DNA from: a virus
IMG/VR virus record: IMGVR_UViG_3300031951_000788
Coordinates: 1-31,561 of that record
Direction: 5' to 3' (one strand)
DNA: 31,561 nt
Shown here in pieces: positions 6,252 through 29,755 of the stretch; positions within the stretch are counted from its first letter, which is position 1, and the number at the start of each line of letters is the position of its first letter. The notes under the pieces were generated by a model that had not been told where the DNA came from, did not search any database, and saw only the letters and a program-made list of their open reading frames with translations. The translations under genes were made by a program, and so were the position numbers.

Positions 6252-6421
6252 TATTCGTCCTTTAGGTTGCGGATGTTAAGAGTGATAGACCAGACAACAA
6301 GGGTGGCAATGATTGCGTAACCCACGATTGTCTTGGCTGAACCCTCTAGTACTACCCAAGCCACAAACATTCCTAAGAGTGTCCATAGTTGGTTAGCAAT
6401 ATCTGATATGAACTTCTTCAT
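6251..6421 (-). CDS. Small membrane protein of the lysis region
   Basis: A 56-residue protein. Its start ATG 6421 overlaps the stop of the secreted proline-rich protein (ATGA) and its stop overlaps the next start (TAATG), so it is tightly coupled on both sides. Two hydrophobic segments, LWTLLGMFVAWVVL (12-25) and IVGYAIIATLVVWSITL (32-48), are joined by a short EGSAK loop, and the C-terminus is charged. It probably sits in the cytoplasmic membrane. The context suggests a holin subunit, antiholin or lysis timing factor. No named family is recognised. Confidence 0.6.
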   Translation of the reverse strand: MKKFISDIANQLWTLLGMFVAWVVLEGSAKTIVGYAIIATLVVWSITLNIRNLKDE

Positions 6422-7716
6422 ATATTTCTCCTGTACGCGGCTAGTGCAGCAGATGCTGCTGCTTGAGTGGCTATGTTTCCTGCAATAACTGCAGCGATGA
6501 TTACCTTCTCTGATTGCTCGCGTACCTCAGGGGACATATCTGCACCGATATTTCCCAAGGCCATCAAGACTTGTCCAGGGTCGGTGAATAACTCTGCTAA
6601 TAATTCTGCTGGGTTCTCCAGCAAAGTAAGTGCTATAACTACCTCTGCCGTAAGAACCACACCGTTCTCCAGTTCCACTGGAGTATCAGGTGGCAACACG
6701 CTAAGGTCTGTATCTTCAGTGAGTTGTACCACTTCTGGTACAATAGGCTCAGGTGTAGAGATGGGAGTTTCAGGTTGAATAAGTTCTGGCGTTGGCTCAG
6801 GTTCAGTTGGTATGACCTCAGGCTCAAGTGGCTCTGGTTCCTCAATGACCTCAGGCTCCGTAGGAGTTTCAGTGACGGGTTCTTCATCTTCCGCGACAGG
6901 TTCTTCGACCACTGGTTCTTCTACAACTGGCTCACTTACTTCAGGAATCTGAAGACCAGGTTCATCAATGTTGTCTACCGTAGGTTCTGGCTCAGGCTCT
7001 GGTATAGGGTCTGGGATAGGTTCAGGTAATGGTTCAGGCTCTGGCGCTGGTGGCGGTACCACTACTGGCTCTGGTTGTACTACTGGTACTGGGTCGGGGA
7101 GAGGAGTAACTACAGGTGTTGGAATTGATTCTGCTGTTTGGGTATCTACCGTTGATGTTTCTACTGGTAGCACAGGTGTTAGAGATTCGGTACTTGAAGT
7201 CGGAGTATCAACAGTCGCAGAAGGTGTCTCAAGTGTGGAAGTCTGAGTATCAGAAGTTGTTGTTTCGGTCTCAGAAACAGTTGAGGTCTCAGAAGTTGGA
7301 GCAGTTGTCGTCTCCGAAGGAGCAGTCACCGTCTCAGAAGCAGTCACAGTTTCGGACTGAACGGTCTGCGTCTCAGGATTGGGACTTGCAACAAGGGTAG
7401 GAACTACGCCATTGTAGTAACCAGTAGAACTATCAGGAAGATTATCACTAACGTAAACATTGAATCCTGGTGGTGCATATCCGCCCTCGCAAAATAGTCT
7501 AGGGATGTAACCCTTGTCTGCAAAGAATTGGTTACTGTTATCCCATCCAATTTGATATGTCTGCTCTGTGTTCTCTTGATTAGCACACGTTACATCAGCG
7601 TAAGCAGTTGCTGCATATGCTTGAGGGTAGAGCAGAAATGTAGTTCCAATTAAAATAAAAAGTACTGATAACTTACTTGCTTTCCTTCTCGCAGAGGAGG
7701 AGATAGATTTGGTCAA
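6418..7716 (-). CDS. Secreted proline/glutamate/threonine-rich protein of the lysis region
   Basis: A 432-residue protein with an N-terminal signal peptide: basic SSARRKASKLS, hydrophobic core VLFILIGTTFLLYP, and a likely cleavage after AYA (about residue 35). The mature N-terminus (40-105) has two cysteines (C44, C76) that could form a disulfide. Residues 112-200 are Thr/Ser/Glu-rich with ETVTASETVT-like repeats, and 200-330 are a Pro-Glu/Pro-Val repeat like the rigid periplasmic spacer of TonB. The last 80 residues are helical and hydrophobic in two blocks (VVLTAEVVIALTLL, KVIIAAVIAGNIA). The start is TTG 7716 (no ATG is present), 44 bases inside the preceding gene. The layout suggests a protein that extends through the cell wall. 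It may assist lysis or be a surface or exclusion factor. No named family is recognised. Confidence 0.65.
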   Translation of the reverse strand: MTKSISSSARRKASKLSVLFILIGTTFLLYPQAYAATAYADVTCANQENTEQTYQIGWDNSNQFFADKGYIPRLFCEGGYAPPGFNVYVSDNLPDSSTGYYNGVVPTLVASPNPETQTVQSETVTASETVTAPSETTTAPTSETSTVSETETTTSDTQTSTLETPSATVDTPTSSTESLTPVLPVETSTVDTQTAESIPTPVVTPLPDPVPVVQPEPVVVPPPAPEPEPLPEPIPDPIPEPEPEPTVDNIDEPGLQIPEVSEPVVEEPVVEEPVAEDEEPVTETPTEPEVIEEPEPLEPEVIPTEPEPTPELIQPETPISTPEPIVPEVVQLTEDTDLSVLPPDTPVELENGVVLTAEVVIALTLLENPAELLAELFTDPGQVLMALGNIGADMSPEVREQSEKVIIAAVIAGNIATQAAASAALAAYRRNI

Positions 7717-7876
7717 CTCGTGTTTCCAATCGGTTCACTTGGTCTTTAACGGAACCGCCCCCATTTGGTTTTAACTCTGATAGATAGTGCTTAACAAGCC
7801 ACTTCACAAAGCCAGCAAACCCTACTGTTATTGTCATTATGGCAACGCCAAAGGCTGCCCATTCTGATGCAGCCAT
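7673..7876 (-). CDS. Small membrane protein with C-terminal coiled coil (DUF2746-like)
   Basis: A 67-residue protein with one N-terminal membrane helix (FGVAIMTITVGFAGFVKWLV, 9-28), a basic KHYLSELKPNGGGSVKD linker and an amphipathic helix VNRLETRVDQIYLLL. A TM helix followed by a glycine-containing linker and a heptad helix resembles the DUF2746-type proteins found near tail and lysis genes of actinophages; this is from memory and moderate in strength. It overlaps the tail gene stop by one base (TAATG) and its end overlaps the secreted protein by 44 bases. A role in lysis or as a membrane anchor is possible. Confidence 0.55.
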   Translation of the reverse strand: MAASEWAAFGVAIMTITVGFAGFVKWLVKHYLSELKPNGGGSVKDQVNRLETRVDQIYLLLCEKESK

Positions 7877-9864
7877 TACACAGTCCTAATCGTTATCTGA
7901 ATAATTCCTCCGAAGCCAGAGAAGCCTTTATCTGGTGGAGTACCGCGAGTGAAAGATATTTGTTCGATAACAGCCTGGCGTGACTCGCCAGTGCTGAGGT
8001 CTTGCCAAGTTACTACGTCTCCAGATTCCTCAATGTCTTCAAGGAGTTGGATTCTATCCATTGCTCTACCTTCGTAGCCAGTGACAACGTTGTATCTATC
8101 TGTCTCTAAGTCAAAGCAATAGACTGGGAACTGAATGACACGCTGGCGTGGGGTAGCAATGGTTGCCTTAGCCTGATAGCCCTTGAATACTGGGCCACGA
8201 CTATTGGTTGTACCATCTCTGTATAGAATAAACTTAAAGGCTACATACTCTTGAGCAGTAGCAGGGTTAGATGTACCAACTTCAATAGGGCTGATGCTTG
8301 CATCGTATGAGATGTGGTCATACTCAACGCCGTTCTTATCCACTGTCTCCAGTGTCATAGAACCGTAGGTAAAGTCACCACGTCCAAGAAGACGCTTGAA
8401 GTTCTTAGGCTCAAGTGTTCCGTAGCGGATGTTACCTGTAGTCAGGTATCCAGATGTGCGAAGAGTTGAGGCGTCTTCAATGTAGATTGTTCCATCTGTC
8501 GTGCCATTGTTTGCTGTGCAGAATACAAGCCTGTCAGTTACTGTTGGGTCATCGTTGCCGACGAATGCACAAGCGGTTGTCTTGTACCCAGTAACGCCAT
8601 CCATATACAAGTCATTAGCATAGGCAAAGCGTAGAGTTTCTAGTTCATTGGATAGGTCAATACGGATAACACCTGGCTCACCAGCCACGCCTGTAGCGCA
8701 CCACACATAGTGGTCGCGTGTTGCAAAGTCAAAGCAAGGCTGTGATGTTTCTACAATAAGTGGACCATAGTTGAGTGAACCATCTTGGTCAGATACTGCT
8801 GCCACTCGGATACCTCTGTTGGTACCAATCATCATATAGCCAAGGTAGTAATGAATCTTGTGGACAATCTCACCTGCTGGAAGTTCTGCTGCTACCACCG
8901 CTGAGGTGAGTGTAGGCATTACACCTGCTGTAGATAGTGTGAACTTCTGAATGGTTGATTGGATGCCGTTGTAGCCAGCAATGTAAATGGCTGGACCAGA
9001 TGCTGCCACAGATGTGTAAACGTGTGTAGAGGTTGGGTGAGAATAGATTGTAGTAGGCATAGCAGTTGCAGATGTAGAAAACTCATACACCTTGTTGTCT
9101 GCACAGAGAACGATACGGTCTTTGACGTACTCCATTGTTGCATTTGTAATGGCGCCAATCTCGTCAAACATCTTGACAACATCTGATGTATCCGCTGAAC
9201 TACCAGTAAGAGGTTTTTTGTAGACAGTCTTCTTGGTCGCTGTATTGGTAATCCAGTAGGCAAATGTTCCATCGTCACAGAGTGCGTAGACTGGGGAGTC
9301 TGTTCCTGAGGTATAATCTACAAAGTGAGTTACTGTTCCATTTGCTGCAATCTTATCAACATCATACTCATCTAGTAGAAGTACACCTTTATTTGTGCTC
9401 CACTTGATTGGACGTAGGTGTTGTTGTGTTACACCATTAGATGCAATAGCACCAGTAATTGTGTGAGTAGATGTGCAAGACTTTAGTAGTGTTGCCTGTC
9501 CCTTGGTCCAGACGTTGATGCCCTTGCTATCAGAGAAGCGATAGTGTCCATTCTCGTCTGTAGTAGCAGGGTCATAGAAGTTGATACCTGACCCAGAGTG
9601 GAATGACATCTGGCTACGAATCCACCAACCAGTAAGAGACTGCTCGCCTGGCTCAGTGCCATTGTCGAACTGGTCTTTACGAAATGGTGCAGTCTGACGC
9701 ACATAAGGGCGTGAGTCATTGATTGCGTAGATGAATGGAAGTCCACCAAGTGCTACGTCATAAGACATATCGGTGTTCTGCCAGATAGCAGTAGATGAAA
9801 CTACACCTACGTCAACTGCGATGGACCGTTCAGCACGGCCCTCGGTAATATCTCTGCCAGCCAA
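7876..9864 (-). CDS. Large tail protein, beta-propeller-like
   Basis: A 662-residue protein made almost entirely of short beta-strand segments, with repeated hydrophobic-then-aspartate patterns (VYALCDDGTFAYWIT, RIVLCADNKVYEFST, HVYTSVAASGPAIYIAGYNG, YVWCATGVAGEPGVIRIDLS) spaced about 45-60 residues apart. This is typical of beta-propeller blades in tail nozzle or tail tubular proteins of podoviruses. No enzymatic motif is visible. The start is TTG 9864, chosen because GGAGG lies six bases upstream and the nearby ATG is out of frame. It is the last tail gene before the lysis region. A distal tail or nozzle role is inferred from size, fold pattern and position; a host-binding role is also possible. 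Confidence 0.6.
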   Translation of the reverse strand: MAGRDITEGRAERSIAVDVGVVSSTAIWQNTDMSYDVALGGLPFIYAINDSRPYVRQTAPFRKDQFDNGTEPGEQSLTGWWIRSQMSFHSGSGINFYDPATTDENGHYRFSDSKGINVWTKGQATLLKSCTSTHTITGAIASNGVTQQHLRPIKWSTNKGVLLLDEYDVDKIAANGTVTHFVDYTSGTDSPVYALCDDGTFAYWITNTATKKTVYKKPLTGSSADTSDVVKMFDEIGAITNATMEYVKDRIVLCADNKVYEFSTSATAMPTTIYSHPTSTHVYTSVAASGPAIYIAGYNGIQSTIQKFTLSTAGVMPTLTSAVVAAELPAGEIVHKIHYYLGYMMIGTNRGIRVAAVSDQDGSLNYGPLIVETSQPCFDFATRDHYVWCATGVAGEPGVIRIDLSNELETLRFAYANDLYMDGVTGYKTTACAFVGNDDPTVTDRLVFCTANNGTTDGTIYIEDASTLRTSGYLTTGNIRYGTLEPKNFKRLLGRGDFTYGSMTLETVDKNGVEYDHISYDASISPIEVGTSNPATAQEYVAFKFILYRDGTTNSRGPVFKGYQAKATIATPRQRVIQFPVYCFDLETDRYNVVTGYEGRAMDRIQLLEDIEESGDVVTWQDLSTGESRQAVIEQISFTRGTPPDKGFSGFGGIIQITIRTV

Positions 9865-10144: not shown

Positions 10145-10660
10145 TTATAGTATGCCGTAAAGGGTTGCTGTTGAGCCTATTGCAAAATTATTTGAATTGT
10201 GGTCAACAAATGTAATAGTTGTAATTGCCGCAGTTCCAGACCATAATCCTGCAAGTATATGAGCGTAAGCAAGTGTTTGATTTGCTTCTTGCGTTATGTC
10301 TACTGAAAAAGATTTTTGATTTCCATTTGTGTAATTAGGAATATGAGCCTCTTGTGAGGTAAATGTGTTAGCAGTTGATGTGCCACCATTAAATTCACCC
10401 ACATACCCACCAGCATATCCTACGCCATCGCCAGTTGTTACAGCCGAACCATTGCCACGCAACCATTTAATTGAATAATTGCCAGCAGTAGAATCTGAGT
10501 TAAATCTAATAAGCATTGCATCTGTGTCACGAGAGCCAGTTGCTCTTGAACTAATAACAACTTTCAAATCGGTGTAACCGCTAGGTATATTACTAAAGGT
10601 TACAGTAGAAGCAGAAGCGGTTAGTTCTGTGGAACTAATTTTATATAACTGTAATGGCAT
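10145..10660 (-). CDS. Receptor-binding-like tail protein, paralogue type A, copy 2
   Basis: A 171-residue beta-rich protein, last of six consecutive paralogues. Shared landmarks are TVTFSNIPSGYTDLKV near the N-terminus, IRFNSDSTAGNYS in the first third, GLWSGTAAITTITF, and the final IGSTATLYGIL. It is closest to the protein at 11762-12274: both have a Q-E-x-x-I-P-N-Y segment (SQEAHIPNY here) followed by K-S-[FL]-S-[VI]-D. The family looks like a jelly-roll domain used in tail fibres and receptor-binding proteins of environmental phages; the binding target is unknown. Its ATG overlaps the stop of the previous paralogue by one base, exactly as in the other module copy. Confidence 0.65.
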   Translation of the reverse strand: MPLQLYKISSTELTASASTVTFSNIPSGYTDLKVVISSRATGSRDTDAMLIRFNSDSTAGNYSIKWLRGNGSAVTTGDGVGYAGGYVGEFNGGTSTANTFTSQEAHIPNYTNGNQKSFSVDITQEANQTLAYAHILAGLWSGTAAITTITFVDHNSNNFAIGSTATLYGIL

Positions 10661-11181
10661 TAGGCGTTACCTGCTTCTATTCCATAGAGTTTGAAAGTTG
10701 AACCAATTGCAAAGTTAACTGAGCCGTTAATTGTAATAGAAGTAATTGCTTCTGGTGTTTTACGCCATAAACCAGCGCCAGCAAGTGCAACGCAAGTTGT
10801 TCCCATAGAAGAATTTCTTATTAAAACACTTTTATTTGTTGTTGTATTAGCGTAATCCATAATATCAAATATTGTTATTCCAAATAGTCCAGCAGTATCA
10901 TTTGAACGTGGAAGTTGCTCACCAGATATGTTGCTTTGGTTTGATGCTCTATATGATATTGAAGAAGCAGTATCCCCAAATATCGCCGTCCAACTATAAT
11001 TTGTAGTTGTATCTGAATTAAATTGCAGCGATGCTGCTTGATATGTTGTTGTCGCTCCTCTTGCATTAATAACTAAACGTAAATCAGTATATCTTCCAGG
11101 TATGCTTGTGAATGTTACGGTTCCTGTTGCAGAGGTAAGAGTTGTTCCATCAATCAAGGCATAGGTAGCAGTCTTAGACAT
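10660..11181 (-). CDS. Receptor-binding-like tail protein, paralogue type B, copy 2
   Basis: A 173-residue beta-rich protein with the family landmarks TVTFTSIPGRYTDLRLV, LQFNSDTTTNYSW and IGSTFKLYGI. It pairs best with the protein at 12274-12783: both have an S-[YF]-R-x-[ST]-N segment (ISYRASNQSNI here), an L-W-R-[KN]-T segment before AITSI, and end in LYGI[EK]AG. Six bases separate it from the preceding paralogue. The divergence in the middle of the protein, with conserved ends, is what would be expected if the central loops contact variable host surface structures; that role is inference. Confidence 0.65.
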   Translation of the reverse strand: MSKTATYALIDGTTLTSATGTVTFTSIPGRYTDLRLVINARGATTTYQAASLQFNSDTTTNYSWTAIFGDTASSISYRASNQSNISGEQLPRSNDTAGLFGITIFDIMDYANTTTNKSVLIRNSSMGTTCVALAGAGLWRKTPEAITSITINGSVNFAIGSTFKLYGIEAGNA

Positions 11182-11187
11182 TTATCA

Positions 11188-11760
11188 TCATCCTTTTATG
11201 CCGTATAGTGAGAAGCGGGAATACTGAACAAAACCAGAACCGTTATGTATTAATTCTATTGAAGTTATATTACCCGTATTATACCAACAGGTAGAAGCCA
11301 TTTCTATTAAACCACTACCGTTTAAGTCTTGACCTCCAAGACTGCGTAAGGTTTTATTTTTATAGGTTGATGAATAATCTAATATAGATATTACTCCAGC
11401 CGAAAATATATTAGCAGTAGTTGATATGCCGCCGTTGCGAATGATTAGAGGTGTTGATGTTGCAGATTGCGCTTGAGCGCCAGCCGTAGCACCATTTCCG
11501 TTAACATTGTGTGCTGAATAATTACTACCAGAATCTGATTGATACCTGATATAAATACCACCGCCACCAGCAGTTGGTGCTTTTGCTATAAATCTAATTT
11601 CAAGATGTTTATAGTTTTGCGGTATATTAGAAAAAGTAATTGTTCCAGTTGTACTAGAAAGTAGCGTAGTAGCAATAGGCTCCATATAGTAGTTGTCAGC
11701 AGATGCAATGTCATACTTTGTACCAGTAAGACCATTGGTAGTTAACCTAGTAACTGCCAT
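11188..11760 (-). CDS. Receptor-binding-like tail protein, paralogue type C, copy 2
   Basis: A 190-residue protein with a longer N-terminus than types A and B, opening AVTRLTTNGLTGT, then TITFSNIPQNYKHLEIRF, a Gly-rich segment, SDSGSNYSAHNVNGNG, and YKNKTLRSLGGQDLNGSG before the terminal YSRFSLYGIKG. It pairs with the protein at 12793-13392, which shares the MA[IV]TR opening, IP-x-x-YKHL, and KTLR-x-L-x-G-x-D-x-NG-[SA]-G. The extended N-terminus could be the part that docks on the tail. It begins one base after the preceding paralogue's stop. Confidence 0.65.
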   Translation of the reverse strand: MAVTRLTTNGLTGTKYDIASADNYYMEPIATTLLSSTTGTITFSNIPQNYKHLEIRFIAKAPTAGGGGIYIRYQSDSGSNYSAHNVNGNGATAGAQAQSATSTPLIIRNGGISTTANIFSAGVISILDYSSTYKNKTLRSLGGQDLNGSGLIEMASTCWYNTGNITSIELIHNGSGFVQYSRFSLYGIKG

Positions 11761-11761
11761 T

Positions 11762-12274
11762 TTATACCTCTGCTTTCACGCCATAGAGTGTGGCTGTTGA
11801 ATACTGGACAAAACTGTCACCGTTACCGCTAAAGATTGAAAGTGAACTGATTGTTGTAACTGATGACCATAGGTTAGCACTTAGATAAACATAGGCTGTA
11901 GTTGCATTGTTCTCTGCTACGGAATCAATTGATAGAGATTTATTTGTTGAGCCAGCATAGTTCGGAATGTAAATTTCTTGATTGCCAAAAGTGCTAGAAG
12001 TTGCAGTTGCAGCAGGTACATCTCCAATGTATAATACTGTTAAAGTTCCAGATGCAGCACTTGCTCCATTACCACTTATGTAACGATTGGTTATATTAGA
12101 GGTTGAACCATTTATCTTTAACTGTGAGTTATCCCAATTGGATGCACGATTAGAACGAACTGATATTTTAAGCATCAAGTCATTATAGTTCTGTGGGATA
12201 TTATTGAAGTCAATAGATGCTACCGCAGTCGCACCAACAGTTACCTCGGCTAGTTTGCTATATGTAAATGCCAT
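11762..12274 (-). CDS. Receptor-binding-like tail protein, paralogue type A, copy 1
   Basis: A 170-residue beta-rich protein: SIDFNNIPQNYNDLMLKI, then a variable centre, then GNQEIYIPNYAGSTNKSLSID, NLWSSVTTISSLSI and YSTATLYGVKAEV. The Q-E-x-x-IPNY and LYG endings link it to the type A protein at 10145-10660. Its ATG overlaps the stop of the type B gene by one base (TAATG). Like its neighbours it has no signal peptide or enzymatic motif, so a structural adsorption role is likely. Confidence 0.65.
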   Translation of the reverse strand: MAFTYSKLAEVTVGATAVASIDFNNIPQNYNDLMLKISVRSNRASNWDNSQLKINGSTSNITNRYISGNGASAASGTLTVLYIGDVPAATATSSTFGNQEIYIPNYAGSTNKSLSIDSVAENNATTAYVYLSANLWSSVTTISSLSIFSGNGDSFVQYSTATLYGVKAEV

Positions 12275-12783
12275 TATGAACCAGCCTTTATGCCGTATAA
12301 AGTGAAGGTAGAACCTGCTGCAATGTTGCCACCCGATATGGTAATTTTAATAGAGGTAATAGCATTTGTATTACGCCATAAATCTGCAAACATTTCAGTT
12401 GCAAAAGCAGCAGAGTTTGAACGCACAAGAGTTGTTTTGAAAACATTAGCATTTGCATAGTTAAGGAACTTTGCATTATACAATCCAAAACTACCGCTTG
12501 TTGGTGGTTCTGCGATATTAGATAAAAGAATGTTTGTATTGCTTGTTTGACGGAATGATACAGCAGTTGAGCCGTTTGCTCGAAGTCCCGTATTTGAATA
12601 CAAAGAACCAGTGCCGTTGTCATTATTAAATTGCATAGTTAAACCTTGACCAGAGGCTGATGCTTGAACGCTAGCAACAAGTTCTAAATCAGTATAATCA
12701 CCAGGTATAGTGCTAAAGGTTACTGTTGTTGATGCTGATGCAAGCACTTGTCTTGCTATAGGAGTATATGTCTGTGTTGGCAT
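12274..12783 (-). CDS. Receptor-binding-like tail protein, paralogue type B, copy 1
   Basis: A 169-residue beta-rich protein with TVTFSTIPGDYTDLELV, MQFNNDNGTGSLYS, VSFRQTSNTNIL, LWRNTNAITSIKI and GSTFTLYGIKAGS. The order and wording of these segments match the type B protein at 10660-11181. The start at ATG 12783 comes nine bases after the type C stop. The high Ser/Thr/Asn content and strand-length hydrophobic runs fit an exposed virion protein. Confidence 0.65.
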   Translation of the reverse strand: MPTQTYTPIARQVLASASTTVTFSTIPGDYTDLELVASVQASASGQGLTMQFNNDNGTGSLYSNTGLRANGSTAVSFRQTSNTNILLSNIAEPPTSGSFGLYNAKFLNYANANVFKTTLVRSNSAAFATEMFADLWRNTNAITSIKITISGGNIAAGSTFTLYGIKAGS

Positions 12784-12792
12784 TCTTCCTCC

Positions 12793-13392
12793 TTATTTAA
12801 TTCCGTATAGGGCAAATGATGAGTACTGAATAGCAGTGCCACCTGAAGGATTTATTGTTATTGTGCTAATTGCGGCAGTTGACATCCAAACTCCAGAGGT
12901 AATTCCAACCATTCCAGCACCGTTTGAATCTCCCCCTTGCAGCGCTCTGAGAGTTTTATATTTATTTGTATTTGCATAATCTAATACATCCACAATGGCA
13001 ACGCCAAAGATTCCAGCAGTCAAACTGTTAGATGCTGCACGCATAAAGTCGTTGAATGAAGTTTGAGTTGTTGCTGCAGTTGCTGATGCTGCTGAGCCAT
13101 CGCCTGATAAAGTGTGGAAAGCGTAATTGGAGCCAGTGTCAGAATTAAAACGTATTTGTTGATTATTCCAAGAACCAGTGTCATTTGTTCGAAGTATTCC
13201 TCGAATTTGTAAATGTTTATAGGTGCTAGGAATAGAACTAAAAGTAATAGAAGACACACCGCCTGCTCCTACATCCACCTTATCAATATAGTCATAACTT
13301 CCACCTAGGATGACATCATTGCCACCTAGTAACGTCTTCTTAGTAGAAGGCCCCTGTGCAACACTAGAGGTCTTTACTCTAGTGATTGCCAT
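12793..13392 (-). CDS. Receptor-binding-like tail protein, paralogue type C, copy 1
   Basis: A 199-residue protein, the first paralogue in transcription order. It has an extended N-terminus (AITRVKTSSVAQGPSTKK), then SITFSSIPSTYKHLQIRGI, IRFNSDTGSNYAFHTLSGDG, VDVLDYANTNKYKTLRAL and YSSFALYGIK. The motif FSSIPSTYKHLQIRG-like is familiar from structural proteins of aquatic phages. It is coupled by a one-base overlap to the 106-residue virion protein before it. It pairs with the type C protein at 11188-11760. Confidence 0.7.
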   Translation of the reverse strand: MAITRVKTSSVAQGPSTKKTLLGGNDVILGGSYDYIDKVDVGAGGVSSITFSSIPSTYKHLQIRGILRTNDTGSWNNQQIRFNSDTGSNYAFHTLSGDGSAASATAATTQTSFNDFMRAASNSLTAGIFGVAIVDVLDYANTNKYKTLRALQGGDSNGAGMVGITSGVWMSTAAISTITINPSGGTAIQYSSFALYGIK

Positions 13393-13712
13393 TAGGACTC
13401 GTCGCCGTAGGCGTGGAAAGAGATGTTTGCAGTTGAAGCATAGACAGTTACTACATCTGTTGTAGCAAGTGTGATGCCCAATGTAAGGCAGGTAGTATCA
13501 GCAGCACCGACTGCAACATCATAGGCTACATAATGAACAGCAGCCAAGGTAGCACCAGCAGGACGTACTGCCACACGGAAGGTAGCAGATGATGATGCTT
13601 GGTTGCATATTGTAAGAGATGAGATAACCGCACTCTTAGCAGATGGAACTGTATAGAGTGTTGTTGCTGTTGTTGCAGATGGGTTTACTTGCCCAAGTAC
13701 TTTCTTTGCCAT
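13392..13712 (-). CDS. Small beta-sandwich virion protein
   Basis: A 106-residue protein: KKVLGQVNPSATTATTLYTVP, then AVISSLTICNQ, TFRVAVRPAGATLAAVHYVAYD, TCLTLGITLATTDVVTVYAS and a final ISFHAYGDE. These even alternating strands predict one compact beta sandwich. Similar small proteins recur beside tail fibre genes in freshwater and marine phages and are annotated as structural. It sits between the long tail fibre and the six-gene paralogue array and is coupled to the latter by a one-base overlap. A decoration or fibre-tip role is possible; the exact place in the virion is unknown. Confidence 0.6.
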   Translation of the reverse strand: MAKKVLGQVNPSATTATTLYTVPSAKSAVISSLTICNQASSSATFRVAVRPAGATLAAVHYVAYDVAVGAADTTCLTLGITLATTDVVTVYASTANISFHAYGDES

Positions 13713-13732: not shown

Positions 13733-15514
13733 TTAGGCGCCCATCATCATAAAGATGTCGGCTGTTGGGTCGGTTGTTACGGTTGCCCACGAAGCGGTTG
13801 TACCGTCTGTGGTTAAATACTTTCCTGAGTTGCTTGTCTGGCTTGGTAGTGCATCTACTGCTCCCCAAGAAGATACAGTTCCATTTGTAGTCAGATACTT
13901 ACCTGAGTTGCCTGTCTGGCTAGGTACTACATAGGCTGTAGAGTCTGTAGCCACAAGAGTCTTGCTAGATGGAATAGTTGTACCGTTGATAGATGTAGCA
14001 GTTGCTACGCCAAGGTCAGGGGTGACAAGGGTAGGGCTGGTATTCATTACGAAGGTAGAGCCTGTACCAGTCTGTGCTGCAACGCTAGTGGCTGAGCCAA
14101 CAGATGTAATAGGACCAGTCAAGTTGCTAGGTGCAACGGTTATTGTATCTACATAGCCCTTAGTTGCTGCATCAGTAGATGTGGTTGGTGTGCCTAGTCC
14201 AGTTACCTTGTTGGTTCCCATTGCTAGGTTGCCAGACATTGTGCTACCAGACTTGAGTACTACTGTGTCTGAGAAGTTTGCTGTATCAGCCAAGGCTGCT
14301 GCAATCTCATTAAGGGTATCAAGAGTAGATGGAGCACCATCAATAAGGTTGTTGATTGCTGTTCCAACATAGGCTGTAGTTGCTACCTGAGTAGTGTTAG
14401 TACCAGCAGTAGCAGTAGGGGCAGTAGGAACACCAGTAAGTGCTGGGCTAGCCAATGGAGCGTATGTGCTTGAGGCTGTTGCAGTTGCTAACTTAGAATC
14501 AATCTGAGTCTGGATAGCAGAAGTAACTCCGTCAAGGTATCCAAGTTCTGTAGTAGATACAGTAGATGAAGGAGCAATCTTGCTCCAGTCAATAGCAGCA
14601 GAAGCGTTGATATCTGCATTGACAATACCGTTGGTCAAAGCCAACTTGCCGTAGGCAATCTGAGCAGATGTATTAACGTCTGCGTTAACGATTGCTCCAG
14701 TGCCAATAACCGTGGTAAGGCTGACGTTGCCAGTTCCATCAAAGGTGACTCCGCTTGCTTCGACATCTCCAGTAAGTTGGAATGTACGAGCAGTAGCCAA
14801 GGCTGTAGCAGTAGCAGCATTACCTGTGGTTGAACCAGAGGTTCCTGATACGTTACCAGTAACGTTGCCCGTGAGGTTGCCTGTGAAAGTTCCAGCGATA
14901 GCACCAGTACCAGTAATGGTTGGGCTAGTCAGTGTCTTATTGGTAAGAGTCTGGGTTGTATCAGTTCCTACAAGAGTTGTTGTAGCGTCTGGAATTGTGA
15001 CTGTACGGTCTGCAGTAGGGTCTGTGACTGTAAGAGTTGTTTCAAACGCGTTAGCAGTAGCACCTTCAAATACAATGCTTGCATCTGTAAGGGTTAGCCC
15101 TGATACCTCAGGTGAGGTAAGAGTCTTGTTGGTAAGTGTCTGGGTGTTGGTTGTACCAACTACAGCACCAGTTGCACCGTGTCCCGTGGTTGCTTCGATG
15201 TGAGTGTTGGCTTCACGATAGTCACGACCAATTGCCATATGGCGAACAACAGCACCTGCTGAGTGAGCCTGGCCTGTTGAGCCATCAACACCACGAGTGA
15301 TGGTAAGAGTGTTAGTACTTACCGCCGTGACATCTACAATTTCTTCAAGGGCTGTATCTGGGTCAATGACTGCGGTGAATGTTTCACCAGCAGAGATTGT
15401 TGTTCCACCCAAGATGGCTGAACCTGATACTACCGTTGCCGATGTACCAGATGAGGTAAGTGCCCCAGTCAGAGTTGTCTGCTGTGAGCGAGATGAGTAT
15501 TTTCTAGTTGTCAT
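13733..15514 (-). CDS. Long tail fibre protein
   Basis: A 593-residue Thr/Ser/Ala/Gly-rich protein with the repeat types of phage tail fibres: TQTLTNKTLTSP twice (124-135, 187-198), TGNLTGNVTGNVSGT (211-225), ALTGVPTAPTA...TTQVATTAYV (358-383), STDAATKGYVD (446-456) and two copies of QT-x-NSGKYLTT[ND]GT (533-545, 559-572). The N-terminal 100 residues form a separate beta domain (ILGGTTISAGETFTAVIDPD, TRGVDGSTGQAHSAG) that probably attaches to the tail. The end IFMMMGA is short, so the receptor-binding tip may be supplied by the downstream small proteins. The start at ATG 15514 has AAGGA six bases upstream. The fibre would mediate first contact with the host. Confidence 0.8.
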   Translation of the reverse strand: MTTRKYSSRSQQTTLTGALTSSGTSATVVSGSAILGGTTISAGETFTAVIDPDTALEEIVDVTAVSTNTLTITRGVDGSTGQAHSAGAVVRHMAIGRDYREANTHIEATTGHGATGAVVGTTNTQTLTNKTLTSPEVSGLTLTDASIVFEGATANAFETTLTVTDPTADRTVTIPDATTTLVGTDTTQTLTNKTLTSPTITGTGAIAGTFTGNLTGNVTGNVSGTSGSTTGNAATATALATARTFQLTGDVEASGVTFDGTGNVSLTTVIGTGAIVNADVNTSAQIAYGKLALTNGIVNADINASAAIDWSKIAPSSTVSTTELGYLDGVTSAIQTQIDSKLATATASSTYAPLASPALTGVPTAPTATAGTNTTQVATTAYVGTAINNLIDGAPSTLDTLNEIAAALADTANFSDTVVLKSGSTMSGNLAMGTNKVTGLGTPTTSTDAATKGYVDTITVAPSNLTGPITSVGSATSVAAQTGTGSTFVMNTSPTLVTPDLGVATATSINGTTIPSSKTLVATDSTAYVVPSQTGNSGKYLTTNGTVSSWGAVDALPSQTSNSGKYLTTDGTTASWATVTTDPTADIFMMMGA

Positions 15515-23446: not shown

Positions 23447-26400
23447 TTATTCTCCAATCAAACCATCGAATATGTTCCAGTAAAGCGATACAGCATTAGG
23501 GTTAGTACCCGCTGTGGCCTTTAGGAACTCACGTATATCATCTTTCATCATTCTCTTGCGGTCAGCATCTGACTGAGAACTTCCTTGGATAGCATCTACG
23601 CTAGCCTGGAACTCGTCATACTTGTAAATCATTGTTGCAAATGTGTTAGCAAGGTCCTTATCTGGAGATAAGCCATTGTATACAACGCTGCGTAGGTCAT
23701 TAAGTGCTTCAATCTTCAGAGCCTTGTATGCCTTAACATCACCAAGTTCTGCGGCCAATAGAGGATATTGCTTCATAAAAGCATTCTTCTCTACATCCCA
23801 CTTTTGACGAAGTTCTTTTCTACCCTGAACACTGTCGGACTTTGTGATTGCATCATCGTAAAATTCTTTACGTACATTGTACTTCTGGCGGCCTTCTGCT
23901 GACGCAGCCTGGCGCAGGAAGTCCTCAAGGTCCTTATTCTTAATAAAGCCTTCAGACTTTAGGTATGAATATGCACCTATGTCATTCTGTCCAGTTACTG
24001 GAACAAAGAATGATGCTGCTTGCTTGTGATAAAGAATGAAATCCTTGTTATTCTTTACAAAGTCTGCTGCTTCCATAGTCTTCTGGAAGGAAGCCTCAGT
24101 GCCAGTCTCTGTCTTTGAGACTCCATATACAGCCTTGTTAGGATATAGGGTTACAAAGCGAACATAAGCCTTGCTGAAAGCATCTGGGTCACCAGCATAC
24201 TTCTCAACCAACTTAGCAAACTCTGTATCCCAACTAAATACTCCTGCATCAATCATTGCCTGAGGAACATCTTGGTTGGCAAATGTCTGAACTGATGCTG
24301 GGGCAAAGAGACCCATAGTAAAGCGAATTGCCATAATGTTAATGGCTTGCTTCATAACGAATGTCATAAATTCGTTGATGTCTGAGCCTTCTTTAGGACC
24401 ATTACCAGTAGAAATTCCAAGACGCATAGCCTGAACAACTGCTGATGCCTTCTGTTCTGTAAGAACTTCTTGACTTCCAATAATATCTATAAAACGTTGT
24501 ACGTTGATAGGAGTAACCTTGCGCCAGAATGGTTGGTCTCTCCTGCTTCCAGTAAGAATTGGTTCTACATCCTTAATCCACTCACCAACAATAGGTAAGT
24601 TAGATAGAATCTCCAGCGGAATAGCCGTAAGAGGTGTACCGATTCTAGGTGCTGCAGATTCTGGGTCAAGAGATGGGGTAAGCATCTTGACTTTACCACC
24701 AAAGTTAACTGGCAATGGTTGCATTCCTGGTAATCCTAGGAAGCGAAGTACTGTTCCACCCATAATGACGTTAAGAATGTCATCACCTGGGTAGGTAAAG
24801 TAGAGTTCACCGTTGGAATCCTTGTGTACAAACCCTGAATGCTGGAATGTTTGGTTAAGAATAGCAAGTCTTTGGATAGCCTCTGGCTCGTACTTTGCAA
24901 TACGACCAGCACGACGCCAAAAGTCCTCTGTTGCACGATAGTAGCGACCAAAGTTACGGATGCTAAATGCAAGATTTGTTCGGATGTCCGAGTTATCTAC
25001 ATATGCAAGCGTTCTGTTACGAGCAAGGTTTAATGCTGTCTCGTGAGTCTGATTTCTTGCAAGTAATTCTGCAGTCTCTCTTGTTATTCCAGCCTCAATA
25101 AATGAGTTGACTAGATTATTTTGCAACTTACCAAGTTGTTCGCGGTACATTACATAGTTACCATAGAGAATAGGCTCACGGTCTAGGAGTGCAATCTGGC
25201 GACCAATCCAAGCGTAGCCATTCTTTACAACTCGGTCAATAAACTGTGGCGCTTCGCCAGCCTGGTAAGGAATAAGTTCGCGTCCAAGAACCAACTTAGG
25301 CTTATCAAAGCCTTCCTCGTACTTGGCAAGTTGAGCAAAGTCAAAGTTTGTGATACCACCACTTACCTTGATTTCCTCAATAAGTTTTACGTTAAGACGG
25401 CCAGAGTAATCACGTAGGCCGTTTGTAGCATCTACATAGATACGCTTAGCAAAACCTTCTGCTCCTTCGGCCTTGTATATAGCAAATCGCTTAGCAAGCG
25501 TATTTCCCTTGCCTTCAATAAACTTAACAAGTTCGGCAATAACATCTTCTTCTTTACGAAGGATATTTGTAAATACAATTTGTCCAAAGATATTCTTTTT
25601 GCCAATTGTATTCTGCAAATCAAGGTACCAGTTGAGTAGGTATTCTGGTCTATCGTAACGAATCTGAGAAAACACTGACTGGAACTTTGCATCTTTTAAC
25701 ATTTGCAAAATTTGTGGGTTCTCTGTAAGAGATGGTCCATACTGACGTAGGCTACTCATAGTCTCTTCTGCTACGTCCAACTTAAATTCTGCACGAGTTG
25801 CTGCGCCATTGATGGTGTCAGTAACTACTTGTCCATTGTTGCGAACAAAGTCTTCGGCATATCCTGAGATACGTGCACCTTTAGCAGTACGCAAGAACTC
25901 TGGCTTAAATCTATCGTTAAGAATAGCCTTACCTACGGCAATTGCCATAGCCTCAGGGTCATCTGCAAACTTAACAAGTTCATCTCGTGTGTACATTGTC
26001 TTCATAATTCTGTACACTTGACGCGAGATGAGACCAAGTGGGCTAAACTCTACTTCTTTTTGCCCTATGATAGTTTTCTTGCCGCTTGGCAATGTAGCCT
26101 TACGAATCTCTTGAGAGATAAGGCGGCCAGAAATGTAATCTGCTACGCCCTTAAGACCATTGATGAGTCCGAAAGTTCCGACTTCTTCAATGCTGGTACG
26201 AATACCTAGACGTGGGTACAAGTTAAGGAATGACCAAACATCAACTGTTTTTTGCGACAGTACAGATTCGCCAACTTTGCCAGTAATTGTTGAAAAGATA
26301 TTTCCTCTAAGTTCAAACTGACGAAGTTCAACTAGGTTAGGAAGGTAGCGACGATTTGATAGTTGGTATGCACGAACAGCATACTGTGCTCCATCAAGTT

Positions 26401-28768
26401 CAGCGGCATTAAAAACTTCTAGTTCTGCTGGGCGAATGCCTTCAAGAATATCTTTAATCTCTTTTTTGGCCATCTTTGTTTTGTATAACATACCGCCAAG
26501 AATGGAGATTGATTTATCAAATTCTTTGATTACCGACTCGATTGTCGCTGCTTCTTCAGGGCTTACTCCAAGGTCTCTGCGAGCAATAAGTGCCTTTTTA
26601 GTTTCCTTGATTTCAGCAATGTCTGCAACAATCTCGCGCATTTCTGCGTTACTAGATGCAGCAAGACGTTGAGCAACACCTTCTGCACCTGCAGTTTCTG
26701 TTACTTCCTGAACAATTCTACGAATGCCTGCTGGAGCCTGGACCCCTCCTGCTTCTGTGGTACGCAAAATGCGAGTAAACTCACCTAGGTCAAGTGCTGA
26801 CTGGTTTACTGAGTAGAGTTCCTTGCTCATTACATCAATGTTGTCAAGGAACCGTCGTCCGCCTTCAGTAAGGTCAAAGCCCATACCTACGCCAAGAGTC
26901 TTAAGCAAGCCCTTGTACATAAGAAGACGTTCGCCCTCTGTAGCACCAATCCAAGCAATGCGAAATACTGATGCGTTGTGCTTATCAATAACTGTACGAG
27001 CAAGGCGATAAACCTGGTCAGCAGATGATGCGTCATCAAGGACAATCATTCTGTCAAGTTTTGGAGCAATAGAAACCTGACGAGAGATTGCTCTATCTAG
27101 GACTGCATCTAGGCTTCTGTCTTTTGCAACAAAACCTTTTCCATCTGCACGTCCTGCAAGAACACGAGTGTCTTCTCTAAATCCAAGCCTAGACGCCCAA
27201 GCGTTTGGACCCTCTTCAATGGTCTTTGCAATGTCTGCAATGGTTTCTGGAAGTTCGCCAACGCGGTAGCGTTCAATTCCGATGCCTTTACCAACTGCAT
27301 CTTTTGTCCAGTCTTTAATTGCACGAGCAATTGAGTAACGTGGAACTAAAGGGGTACGACGAATACCAGCGTTTCCACGCATCATATCGTCAACAATGTC
27401 TCCACTTACAAAGAACTTGAGAGCAGAGTCAGCGTCCTTGATGTTTGGAGCCATATACATAGCAACGTCTGTGCTAATTTCGGGGAAGCGTTCAGTAATG
27501 CGTGTAAGGGTATCTGCCTTTACAGCGATACTTCCGTTCTCATATGTCTGAAGTAACTTGCCTAGTCTGTCCCAATAGCGACGTACAGTTCTACTCTTCC
27601 AGGCTTTTTCAATGTTACGTGGGTCTTCGCCCATTTTAATAAGACCAAAGCGAGCAGTTTCACCAACACGCTTAAGTTTGCTTATACCAATAAGTGGGTC
27701 AAGTGCAAATGTAACAACAAAGTCAATTGTGCCAGAAATGCCAGTAAAGAACTTCTGTGATGCTCCATCGCCAGCAACAGCCTTCTCTGCATCAAATGGA
27801 AATAAACGGAAAAGGAATTCACGAGTGCTGTCACGACCAACAGAAATTTTTGCGTTTGAATACTGGGTTATGACCTTAGCAACTTCTTGTGCAAACTCTC
27901 TATCTTCTGGCTTGCCAGAAGTAAAGCGATTTACTACTTCAAGTTTCTTATCATCGGCTAGAATTTCTTCATAGTTGTCAAGTATGTTTTCTTTTCGAGC
28001 AAGAATTTTAGCAACGAATGCAATTTCAGGAGCAGTGTTTTTTTCTATGATTGCTACTTCATCTGAATTAAATACGTTTTCTTTATCTGCTGCTTGTTCC
28101 CAATACTTCTTCCAAGTTGTAGAAGCATCTGTTGGCAGTGCGTCGCGTCCGCCTGGGGCTAGTTCTTTCAAGCCCTCAAGAGTTGCTTGACCCCACACCT
28201 TAAGAGCATTCTCGCCAGCGTTGCTTGCTAATTCTGAAGCAGCATATGGTTGCTTTACAAGTTTTTCTTGTGGGCGGAGCAATTTTTCAAGTAGGTCACC
28301 TGCTGCCGTTGTTGTTCCAGCCCTTTGAAAACCAGCATAGGTAGACTTAAGTGGACCGATAACGCCTACAACATTCTGTAATTGCGTTGTTGCTTCTTTA
28401 AGTGTTACATCTTTTTTGCGGCCAGTTTCGATACCGACAATTTGCTTACCAAAGTCAAGCACGGTTCTATAAGAATAATTTGATGCACTTGTTGCACCTG
28501 CAAGAAAGTTTCCAAAGAAACCTTTATCTTGCTGTTGGTACTTTGGGTCGAAAGTCATAGCAAGTACTTCGCGGTACTCTTTTGGAAGAGCATTGAATGA
28601 GCGATAAGCGTCATTCTGGGGAAGTGTGCTTAAGTATTCGTGAGTCTTCTTTAACTCAGTAAATGCAGCAACCTGTGATTTTTCCTTTTCGGAAAGTCCT
28701 GCTTGGGCAGCAGCCACCGCAGTACCTGGCGAAACGTCAGCAATTTTATTTAATGGTTTTTTAATCAT
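23447..28768 (-). CDS. Giant internal virion (ejection) protein, 1773 residues
   Basis: The largest gene in the window. The product is mostly helical and basic with few hydrophobic runs: FFTGISGTIDFVVTFALDPLI (about 340-360) and NIMAIRFTMGLFAPASV (about 1480-1497) could insert in a membrane. Around 1255-1290 the protein has SDIRTNLAFSIRNFGRYYR and DFWRRAGRIAKYEPEA, and around 1335-1375 LRFLGLPGMQPLPVNFGGK; these blocks look conserved among large virion proteins of environmental podoviruses. No polymerase or transglycosylase signature is convincing. It shares one base with the gene upstream. In the absence of a tape measure gene, a role inside the capsid and ejection with the DNA is the best explanation. 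Strand bias and length leave no doubt that it is a real gene. Confidence 0.7.
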   Translation of the reverse strand: MIKKPLNKIADVSPGTAVAAAQAGLSEKEKSQVAAFTELKKTHEYLSTLPQNDAYRSFNALPKEYREVLAMTFDPKYQQQDKGFFGNFLAGATSASNYSYRTVLDFGKQIVGIETGRKKDVTLKEATTQLQNVVGVIGPLKSTYAGFQRAGTTTAAGDLLEKLLRPQEKLVKQPYAASELASNAGENALKVWGQATLEGLKELAPGGRDALPTDASTTWKKYWEQAADKENVFNSDEVAIIEKNTAPEIAFVAKILARKENILDNYEEILADDKKLEVVNRFTSGKPEDREFAQEVAKVITQYSNAKISVGRDSTREFLFRLFPFDAEKAVAGDGASQKFFTGISGTIDFVVTFALDPLIGISKLKRVGETARFGLIKMGEDPRNIEKAWKSRTVRRYWDRLGKLLQTYENGSIAVKADTLTRITERFPEISTDVAMYMAPNIKDADSALKFFVSGDIVDDMMRGNAGIRRTPLVPRYSIARAIKDWTKDAVGKGIGIERYRVGELPETIADIAKTIEEGPNAWASRLGFREDTRVLAGRADGKGFVAKDRSLDAVLDRAISRQVSIAPKLDRMIVLDDASSADQVYRLARTVIDKHNASVFRIAWIGATEGERLLMYKGLLKTLGVGMGFDLTEGGRRFLDNIDVMSKELYSVNQSALDLGEFTRILRTTEAGGVQAPAGIRRIVQEVTETAGAEGVAQRLAASSNAEMREIVADIAEIKETKKALIARRDLGVSPEEAATIESVIKEFDKSISILGGMLYKTKMAKKEIKDILEGIRPAELEVFNAAELDGAQYAVRAYQLSNRRYLPNLVELRQFELRGNIFSTITGKVGESVLSQKTVDVWSFLNLYPRLGIRTSIEEVGTFGLINGLKGVADYISGRLISQEIRKATLPSGKKTIIGQKEVEFSPLGLISRQVYRIMKTMYTRDELVKFADDPEAMAIAVGKAILNDRFKPEFLRTAKGARISGYAEDFVRNNGQVVTDTINGAATRAEFKLDVAEETMSSLRQYGPSLTENPQILQMLKDAKFQSVFSQIRYDRPEYLLNWYLDLQNTIGKKNIFGQIVFTNILRKEEDVIAELVKFIEGKGNTLAKRFAIYKAEGAEGFAKRIYVDATNGLRDYSGRLNVKLIEEIKVSGGITNFDFAQLAKYEEGFDKPKLVLGRELIPYQAGEAPQFIDRVVKNGYAWIGRQIALLDREPILYGNYVMYREQLGKLQNNLVNSFIEAGITRETAELLARNQTHETALNLARNRTLAYVDNSDIRTNLAFSIRNFGRYYRATEDFWRRAGRIAKYEPEAIQRLAILNQTFQHSGFVHKDSNGELYFTYPGDDILNVIMGGTVLRFLGLPGMQPLPVNFGGKVKMLTPSLDPESAAPRIGTPLTAIPLEILSNLPIVGEWIKDVEPILTGSRRDQPFWRKVTPINVQRFIDIIGSQEVLTEQKASAVVQAMRLGISTGNGPKEGSDINEFMTFVMKQAINIMAIRFTMGLFAPASVQTFANQDVPQAMIDAGVFSWDTEFAKLVEKYAGDPDAFSKAYVRFVTLYPNKAVYGVSKTETGTEASFQKTMEAADFVKNNKDFILYHKQAASFFVPVTGQNDIGAYSYLKSEGFIKNKDLEDFLRQAASAEGRQKYNVRKEFYDDAITKSDSVQGRKELRQKWDVEKNAFMKQYPLLAAELGDVKAYKALKIEALNDLRSVVYNGLSPDKDLANTFATMIYKYDEFQASVDAIQGSSQSDADRKRMMKDDIREFLKATAGTNPNAVSLYWNIFDGLIGE

Positions 28769-29212: not shown

Positions 29213-29755
29213 CTACTTAGTATGCTTGAATTGTACTTTCGATATATAAGGTGGAGCAGTAAAGGCTGAAACCTTCGCTGCTATCTCCATCGCTTCGTAG
29301 GCATCTGCTCCAGCGTGTAGTGCTCCTATAGCATACGCTGCGCCAGACCCTGTTGCATAAACTCCATCTGCATTTCTGGTAACCGATAGGTCATCATCAA
29401 TGTCAAAAATTTCTCCGCATACTGCAATCAGAAACTGAAAGCGTTGCTCTGTCTTAGGCTCATCAAAGTTAAAACCATTTGATGATAAACATTTACGGAG
29501 AGAAGGCATAACCTTTACAATCATAAAGTGGTAAAGGTCTTCCTTGTCTTGCTTGGTAGGAACTGGAGGTTCCCAAATATGTTGTGCTACATCGCAAGGT
29601 AGAACCTCACCTGAACCAGCAACCAAAAATTGTCCTCGTTCAGAAATCTTCTTGACATCTGGATGTGTAAAAATCTTTCCACTGTCATCTGTAGTTTGGC
29701 TATCTGCAATCAGAACACAATCTTTTTCGTATTGTAATCCTATAATTGTTGTCAT
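29213..29755 (-). CDS. HslV/proteasome-like Ntn hydrolase
   Basis: A 180-residue protein with the landmarks of HslV and proteasome beta subunits. After removal of Met the N-terminus is TTIIGL, giving a threonine nucleophile (T2 here, Thr1 mature). VLIADSQTT places D18 at the position of Asp17 of HslV, PDVKKISE places K35/K36 near Lys33, and YATGSGAAYAIGAL (133-146) matches the GSG-x-x-YA segment of the family. There is no propeptide and no companion HslU-type unfoldase in the window. The family cleaves peptides after self-assembly into rings. The gene is 15 bases after the portal gene, where tailed phages often carry a head maturation protease, so a role in capsid or scaffold processing is a good hypothesis. 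Confidence 0.75.
   Translation of the reverse strand: MTTIIGLQYEKDCVLIADSQTTDDSGKIFTHPDVKKISERGQFLVAGSGEVLPCDVAQHIWEPPVPTKQDKEDLYHFMIVKVMPSLRKCLSSNGFNFDEPKTEQRFQFLIAVCGEIFDIDDDLSVTRNADGVYATGSGAAYAIGALHAGADAYEAMEIAAKVSAFTAPPYISKVQFKHTK

Follow-up and report, generated by a model that had tools for sequence, protein, structure and literature searches.

Three paralogous genes in fixed order, a candidate heteromeric receptor-binding head in phages of freshwater actinobacteria

The stretch of DNA analyzed here (the window), a virus record of 31.6 kb that may be a fragment, carries tailed-phage genes for a portal, a major head protein, a LysM protein, a tail fibre and a CHAP endolysin. Since neither a tape measure nor a tail tube was noticed among the window ORFs, the phage likely has a short tail. 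On the minus strand, six genes lie between a fibre gene and g106 on one side and g77 and a gene for a 662-aa protein on the other (Table 1), and their coding order is C, B, A (module I) followed by C, B, A (module II), the letters denoting three types of protein. The original prediction gave the coordinates and lengths of all six ORFs correctly, as well as the one-base overlap between B and A and the short gap between C and B. Three further minus-strand genes of the window were noted in passing. A 180-aa protein (29213-29755) begins with MTTIIGLQYEKDCVLIADSQTT, which by eye resembles the start of proteasome-beta-like Ntn hydrolases, and has no Pfam match; a 432-aa protein near the lysis genes (6418-7716) opens with a signal-like sequence and contains long repeats rich in Thr/Ser and Pro/Glu; and a 1773-aa protein (23447-28768) has no PHROG match. 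Podoviruses often encode large ejected internal proteins where this last gene sits.

Table 1. Features of the cassette and its surroundings in the window, and endonuclease genes inserted in the cassettes of relatives
Feature	Position	Strand	Basis
Module I C protein, 199 aa, leader plus beta-sandwich head	12793..13392	-	ORF; type C clade; AF2 confident over residues 33-199, with pLDDT of about 90 and above
Module I C leader, residues 1-32, MAITRVKTSSVAQGPSTKKTLLGGNDVILGGS, slot-1 class of two-socket phages	13297..13392	-	Low pLDDT; slot-specific leader
Module I B protein, 169 aa, without leader	12274..12783	-	ORF; type B clade; head-motif position
Module I A protein, 170 aa, without leader	11762..12274	-	ORF; type A clade; AF2 pLDDT 92.6, all-beta
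Module II C protein, 190 aa, MEPIA subtype	11188..11760	-	ORF; type C clade; subtype signature
Module II C leader, residues 1-26, MAVTRLTTNGLTGTKYDIASADNYYM, slot-2 class of two-socket phages	11683..11760	-	Slot-specific leader
Module II B protein, 173 aa, carries the subtype-marking D	10660..11181	-	ORF; type B clade; subtype signature
Module II A protein, 171 aa, MPLQLYKI start marking the MEPIA subtype	10145..10660	-	ORF; type A clade; subtype signature
g77, small companion protein, 77 aa	9896..10129	-	Family position after last A
g106, 106 aa, with a tail-fibre-like domain; separates the fibre gene from the cassette	13392..13712	-	PHROG tail fibre matches
Tail fibre, 593 aa, upstream of cassette	13733..15514	-	phrog_38058 tail fibre, E 2.6e-39
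Conserved 662-aa gene (phrog_11667), downstream	7876..9864	-	Served as bait for relatives
HNH_3 insertions	L075 8036-8401; L092 5013-5483; L093 11031-11573; L106 10498-10914		
HNH_3 insertions	L144 2468-2890; L147 1171-1554; L153 6474-7046; L212 811-1383		

All six window proteins are homologous, and they pair by type across the two halves of the cassette, as had been proposed. In an all-against-all comparison, the two A proteins matched each other with an E value of 6e-28, the two B proteins with 1e-27 and the two C proteins with 1e-36, compared with 1e-6 to 1e-21 between types. A maximum-likelihood tree of 72 proteins from 24 modules separated the three types into clades without exception (support 100/97 for A, 94/93 for B and 100/96 for C). 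Sequence searches of PHROGs, Pfam and the PDB returned no significant match for the three families, although single members had marginal ones, and a PDB fold search gave no match below E 1e-3, only weak likeness to galectins, laminin-G and lactococcal receptor-binding heads. The domain PF21722 was absent from the six window proteins, whose glycine content is 6-12%, and PF07484 was absent from these six and from 70 C proteins. The same fold, with up to 48% identity, occurs in a so far unnamed fibre-head domain of uncultured Caudovirales (BFVD matches, e.g., A0A6J5NFQ6), where it often belongs to longer proteins of the Stf-repeat, collagen, Fn3 or Gly-rich kind.

To see how the module is organized elsewhere, we retrieved 80 related contigs through the 662-aa neighbour, so that the family itself was not part of the query. 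Its members in these contigs mostly number 3, 6 or 9 genes, always in the order C-B-A. With type HMMs built from 24 triples, we next typed about 155 additional loci that had been retrieved with C or A alignments. Across all loci, every complete, non-edge, distinct C gene (173/173) is followed by B and then A, which backs the earlier description of the window cassette as one three-gene module occurring twice. The count was 75/75 in the C scan and 79/80 in the A scan for loci retrieved after the triples had been typed, and the sole miss is a frameshifted C fragment (L206). Counted by locus, islands were CBA in 129 cases, CBACBA in 12 and CBACBACBA in five, a few loci being one contig retrieved twice (L001/L081 and L115/L203). 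Apparent counter-examples (lone C, BA, CB and five-gene islands) were traced to truncation at contig edges, to insertion of HNH genes, to A-Fn3-C fusion or to one frameshifted ORF, or proved to be distant relatives with a single domain. In the five-gene cassettes of L158 and L190, for instance, the module-1 A is joined through an Fn3-like linker to the module-2 C, and all six domains are kept. Genes interrupting a set encoded an HNH_3 endonuclease in 8/8 cases tested. These insertions recur between different genes of the cassette, as would be expected if adhesin genes were targets of homing endonucleases.

The genes of a set are tightly packed, with a median C-B spacing of 2 bases and a 1-base overlap as the commonest B-A junction, an arrangement suited to coupled expression. 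A member of the g77 family follows the last A in 152/164 islands at a median gap of about 10 bases; that it serves as an assembly chaperone of the set is a guess. The other small neighbour, g106, was found in most loci with multi-socket cassettes.

The head motif common to all three types begins at residue 44 in C and at residues 21-22 in B and A (medians), and the additional N-terminal leader is restricted to C. In the AF2 model of the module I C protein, residues 1-21 have a pLDDT under 50 and are thus predicted to be disordered; pLDDT is near 50 up to residue 30, and the remainder from residue 33 is confidently all-beta. The modelled A protein, by contrast, is folded from residue 3.

The corresponding slots of relatives are occupied by single-gene glycine-rich adhesins (Gly_rich_2, PF21722), which are unrelated to the C-B-A heads and have an analogue in the T4-like gp38 tip adhesins. 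These adhesins nevertheless share leaders with C: their first 20-40 residues match C leaders in 133 pairs scoring above 50 (shuffled maximum 40), involving 42 C proteins and 32 adhesins. Examples include MAITSIKTGSSFTNLKKY, common to the module-2 C of L048 and a 305-aa adhesin of L078; MAIRSLKxGxFSRS, common to the module-2 C of L040/L195 and adhesins of L042/L057/L076; VISIKNKTKSGSLL, common to the C of L072/L075 and the third adhesins of L057/L076; and MAINRTSPKKGKVVDIP, common to the C of L173 and L007. When a leader precedes a C head, B and A come next, whereas a leader on a glycine-rich domain is followed by neither. In the C-B-A sets of relatives, glycine-rich parts are confined to C-terminal tails, which some of the B and A proteins have. 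In three-socket phages, leader identity within the three slots is 0.92, 0.79 and 0.78, compared with 0.34 across slots, while head identity is 0.42-0.51 within a slot and 0.43 across. Leaders are alike within a slot and heads differ about equally within and across slots, which argues that the leader marks position and that the head is exchangeable. By sequence, the proteins thus appear to combine a slot-specific N-terminal anchor with an exchangeable receptor-binding part. Together with the leaders common to C and the single-gene adhesins, this makes it probable that a head of three subunits is plugged into its socket by C, one C-B-A set standing in for one single-gene adhesin.

Two further observations concern the adhesin slots. 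The third-socket adhesins at 7585-8550 of L057 and 8238-9287 of L042 join a leader to another type of repeat fold, with WTxRxLP repeats that look propeller-like by eye, and so add a third head type for the same socket. In addition, a 112-128 aa protein beginning MAHFAxLDENNxVTQV (phrog_7759; 9789-10175 in L245, with like genes in relatives) often lies beside Gly-rich adhesins. It is present in 32/44 first-scan loci that have a Gly-rich protein, and where a locus encodes both types of head, the two small companions are often present together.

The two modules of the window had been explained by duplication of the whole cassette followed by divergence. Comparisons of nearest relatives and of identity do not support a recent duplication in place, and we rejected it. 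In multi-module loci, 0/42 modules were nearest to a module of their own locus, an outcome favoured by the many candidates elsewhere; more tellingly, module pairs from one locus were less alike than random pairs (identity 0.397 versus 0.454). Any duplication is therefore old, or the modules were brought together by exchange. Indeed, the window modules belong to two subtypes, each spread over many phages, and have their nearest relatives in other phages.

Subtype signatures are common to all three subunits; that of module II consists of the MEPIA start of C, a D at B108 and the LQL start of A. C194S and B108D agree in 17/17 versus 1/154 (p 1.6e-22), which indicates that subunits keep to their own subtype. 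Distances between subunits of the same module correlate at 0.40-0.49, compared with 0.08-0.16 when the partner is taken from another module of the same locus, although linkage alone can explain part of the same-module correlation. Between related modules, subunits are nevertheless swapped: fifteen module pairs differ by the swap of one or two subunits, always for one of their own type, and in two pairs (L046/L078 and L144/L147) the middle subunit B alone was swapped. Covariation between subunits exceeded that in shuffles, yet the top mutual-information signals largely reflect one module subtype and in part DNA neighbourhood, and we rejected them as proof of contact.

Taken together, our findings make it reasonably probable that C, B and A together build a single receptor-binding head, an obligate heteromer whose lectin-like beta-sandwich domains most likely assemble 1:1:1 into a heterotrimer. 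The sequences and models show the family membership, the three types, their fixed order and completeness, the leader on C only, its occurrence on single-gene adhesins, its slot specificity with variable heads and the subtype signatures common to the subunits, whereas the physical heteromer, its 1:1:1 stoichiometry, leader docking and receptor binding are inferred. A heteromeric fibre tip had been suggested at the outset, and gene content backs this meaning: C is always accompanied by B and A, only C has the leader, and one set replaces one adhesin. C would be the anchored subunit, its short, probably flexible leader docking the head in one specific tail or fibre socket, and B and A would reach the virion solely by joining C. 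Each set would do the job of one single-gene glycine-rich adhesin bearing the same leaders in relatives. In the window phage, two sockets would both be filled with C-B-A heads of different subtypes, and modules I and II may plausibly bind two receptors. Several points favour a 1:1:1 trimer: all types have one fold and size, domains of the same fold occur in Stf-repeat and collagen-repeat proteins, which are trimeric fibres, and a tripartite precedent exists in a virophage (see below). Since no PDB fold match passes the threshold, this favoured geometry rests on analogy.

The main rival is a serial stack of homotrimers, in which a C trimer docks, a B trimer sits on C and an A trimer on B, interdependent and unmixed. 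Gene order and completeness would also be expected of three such interdependent homo-oligomers, the fixed order C-B-A fits a linear arrangement, and the A-Fn3-C fusions chain one module to the next. Long Gly-rich C-terminal tails, which occur in relatives on A (21/178) and B (12/178) and on no true C, also suit a stack, but what they need is either an asymmetric or a stacked arrangement. We nevertheless consider a stack unlikely: the three heads are of one fold and equal size, B and A have no segment for end-to-end docking, and a lone exchange of the middle B would have to be tolerated on both faces. Much less probable still, C alone might be the virion adhesin, with B and A as its chaperones or soluble accessory proteins. 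It is true that the leader common to the single-gene adhesins is found solely on C, but the head domain of C recurs in B and A, which are as divergent as C, some phages have adhesin-type Gly-rich tails on B and A, and the set is already followed by a small companion gene of its own, g77. Finally, although all six proteins are paralogues, their being interchangeable spare adhesins from ordinary tandem duplication, a diversity reservoir, is already contradicted and least probable of all, since random duplication and loss predicts variable numbers and orders, whereas we found complete sets of three in one order, three clean clades and no module nearest to a module of its own locus.

The closest precedent for the proposed heteromeric head, though from a different family, is the tripartite tail of virophage DSLV2, in which three consecutive related tail genes encode proteins of about 200 aa that co-purify as a 1:1:1 heterotrimer and bind cells (PMC12724248). 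As in DSLV2, three consecutive related genes fall here into position-specific clades. The DSLV2 proteins, however, have the tail collar domain PF07484, which the C proteins lack, and resemble the T4 gp37 needle; DSLV2 has one set, its fibre being modelled on the virophage capsid, whereas we found one to three sets with leader-based sockets in tailed phages. A second likeness is to the branched tailspike complexes of Ackermannviridae (CBA120, S117), which also place multiple receptor-binding proteins on one virion; in each of these proteins, the N-terminal part for assembly is conserved and the part that binds the receptor can be exchanged (PMC8825819, PMC11414711). Those complexes use one gene per tailspike and whole-domain anchors, in contrast to leaders of about 20-45 aa and up to three genes per position here. 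In the literature on heterotrimeric phage tail fibres, the virophage study was the only close case found. The proposed logic of C-B-A joins slot-specific anchors to a tripartite heterotrimer; each idea is known, and their combination in this way was not found in the literature searched.

Among GenBank phages, C and A matched only OX376640 and OX376641, which are LanE43-AprE7 (E7) and LanE43-AprF5 (F5), cultured Planktophila phages that infect one and the same strain and are the first cultured phages of Nanopelagicales (PMC10202952). In E7, the first two sockets are taken by Gly-rich adhesins and the third by C-B-A, which lies at 7962-9558 of L245; F5 has the same cassette, with C split by the record ends. 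The kinship of the window with these phages points to Nanopelagicales as its host. Among cellular genomes, the module was found only in two contigs of one freshwater actinobacterial MAG (L243 and L244), where siphovirus-like loci carry C-B-A plus g77, which suggests that the module crosses tail types, presumably because the cassette has been transferred horizontally.

More broadly, phages of dominant freshwater actinobacteria may possess a plug-in system of one to three leader-coded sockets, each taking either a glycine-rich adhesin of one chain or a head that is an obligate heterotrimer of paralogues, and subtype codes would prevent subunit mixing between heads of one virion; we regard the chances of this wider scheme as even. 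Tailed phages mostly use homotrimers or single chains as their receptor-binding tips. If our reading is true, an obligatory three-paralogue head that can be swapped with single-gene adhesins would be a different solution for such tips, and an asymmetric three-chain tip could show three different binding surfaces per head. It would also account for the strict three-gene blocks in many uncultured freshwater phages and offer a rule for reading adhesin loci, namely that the leader gives the socket and that C requires B and A. Because the cultured E7 and F5 carry one module each, the idea is directly testable, and it points to host-recognition genes in phages of Nanopelagicales, which are among the most abundant freshwater bacteria.
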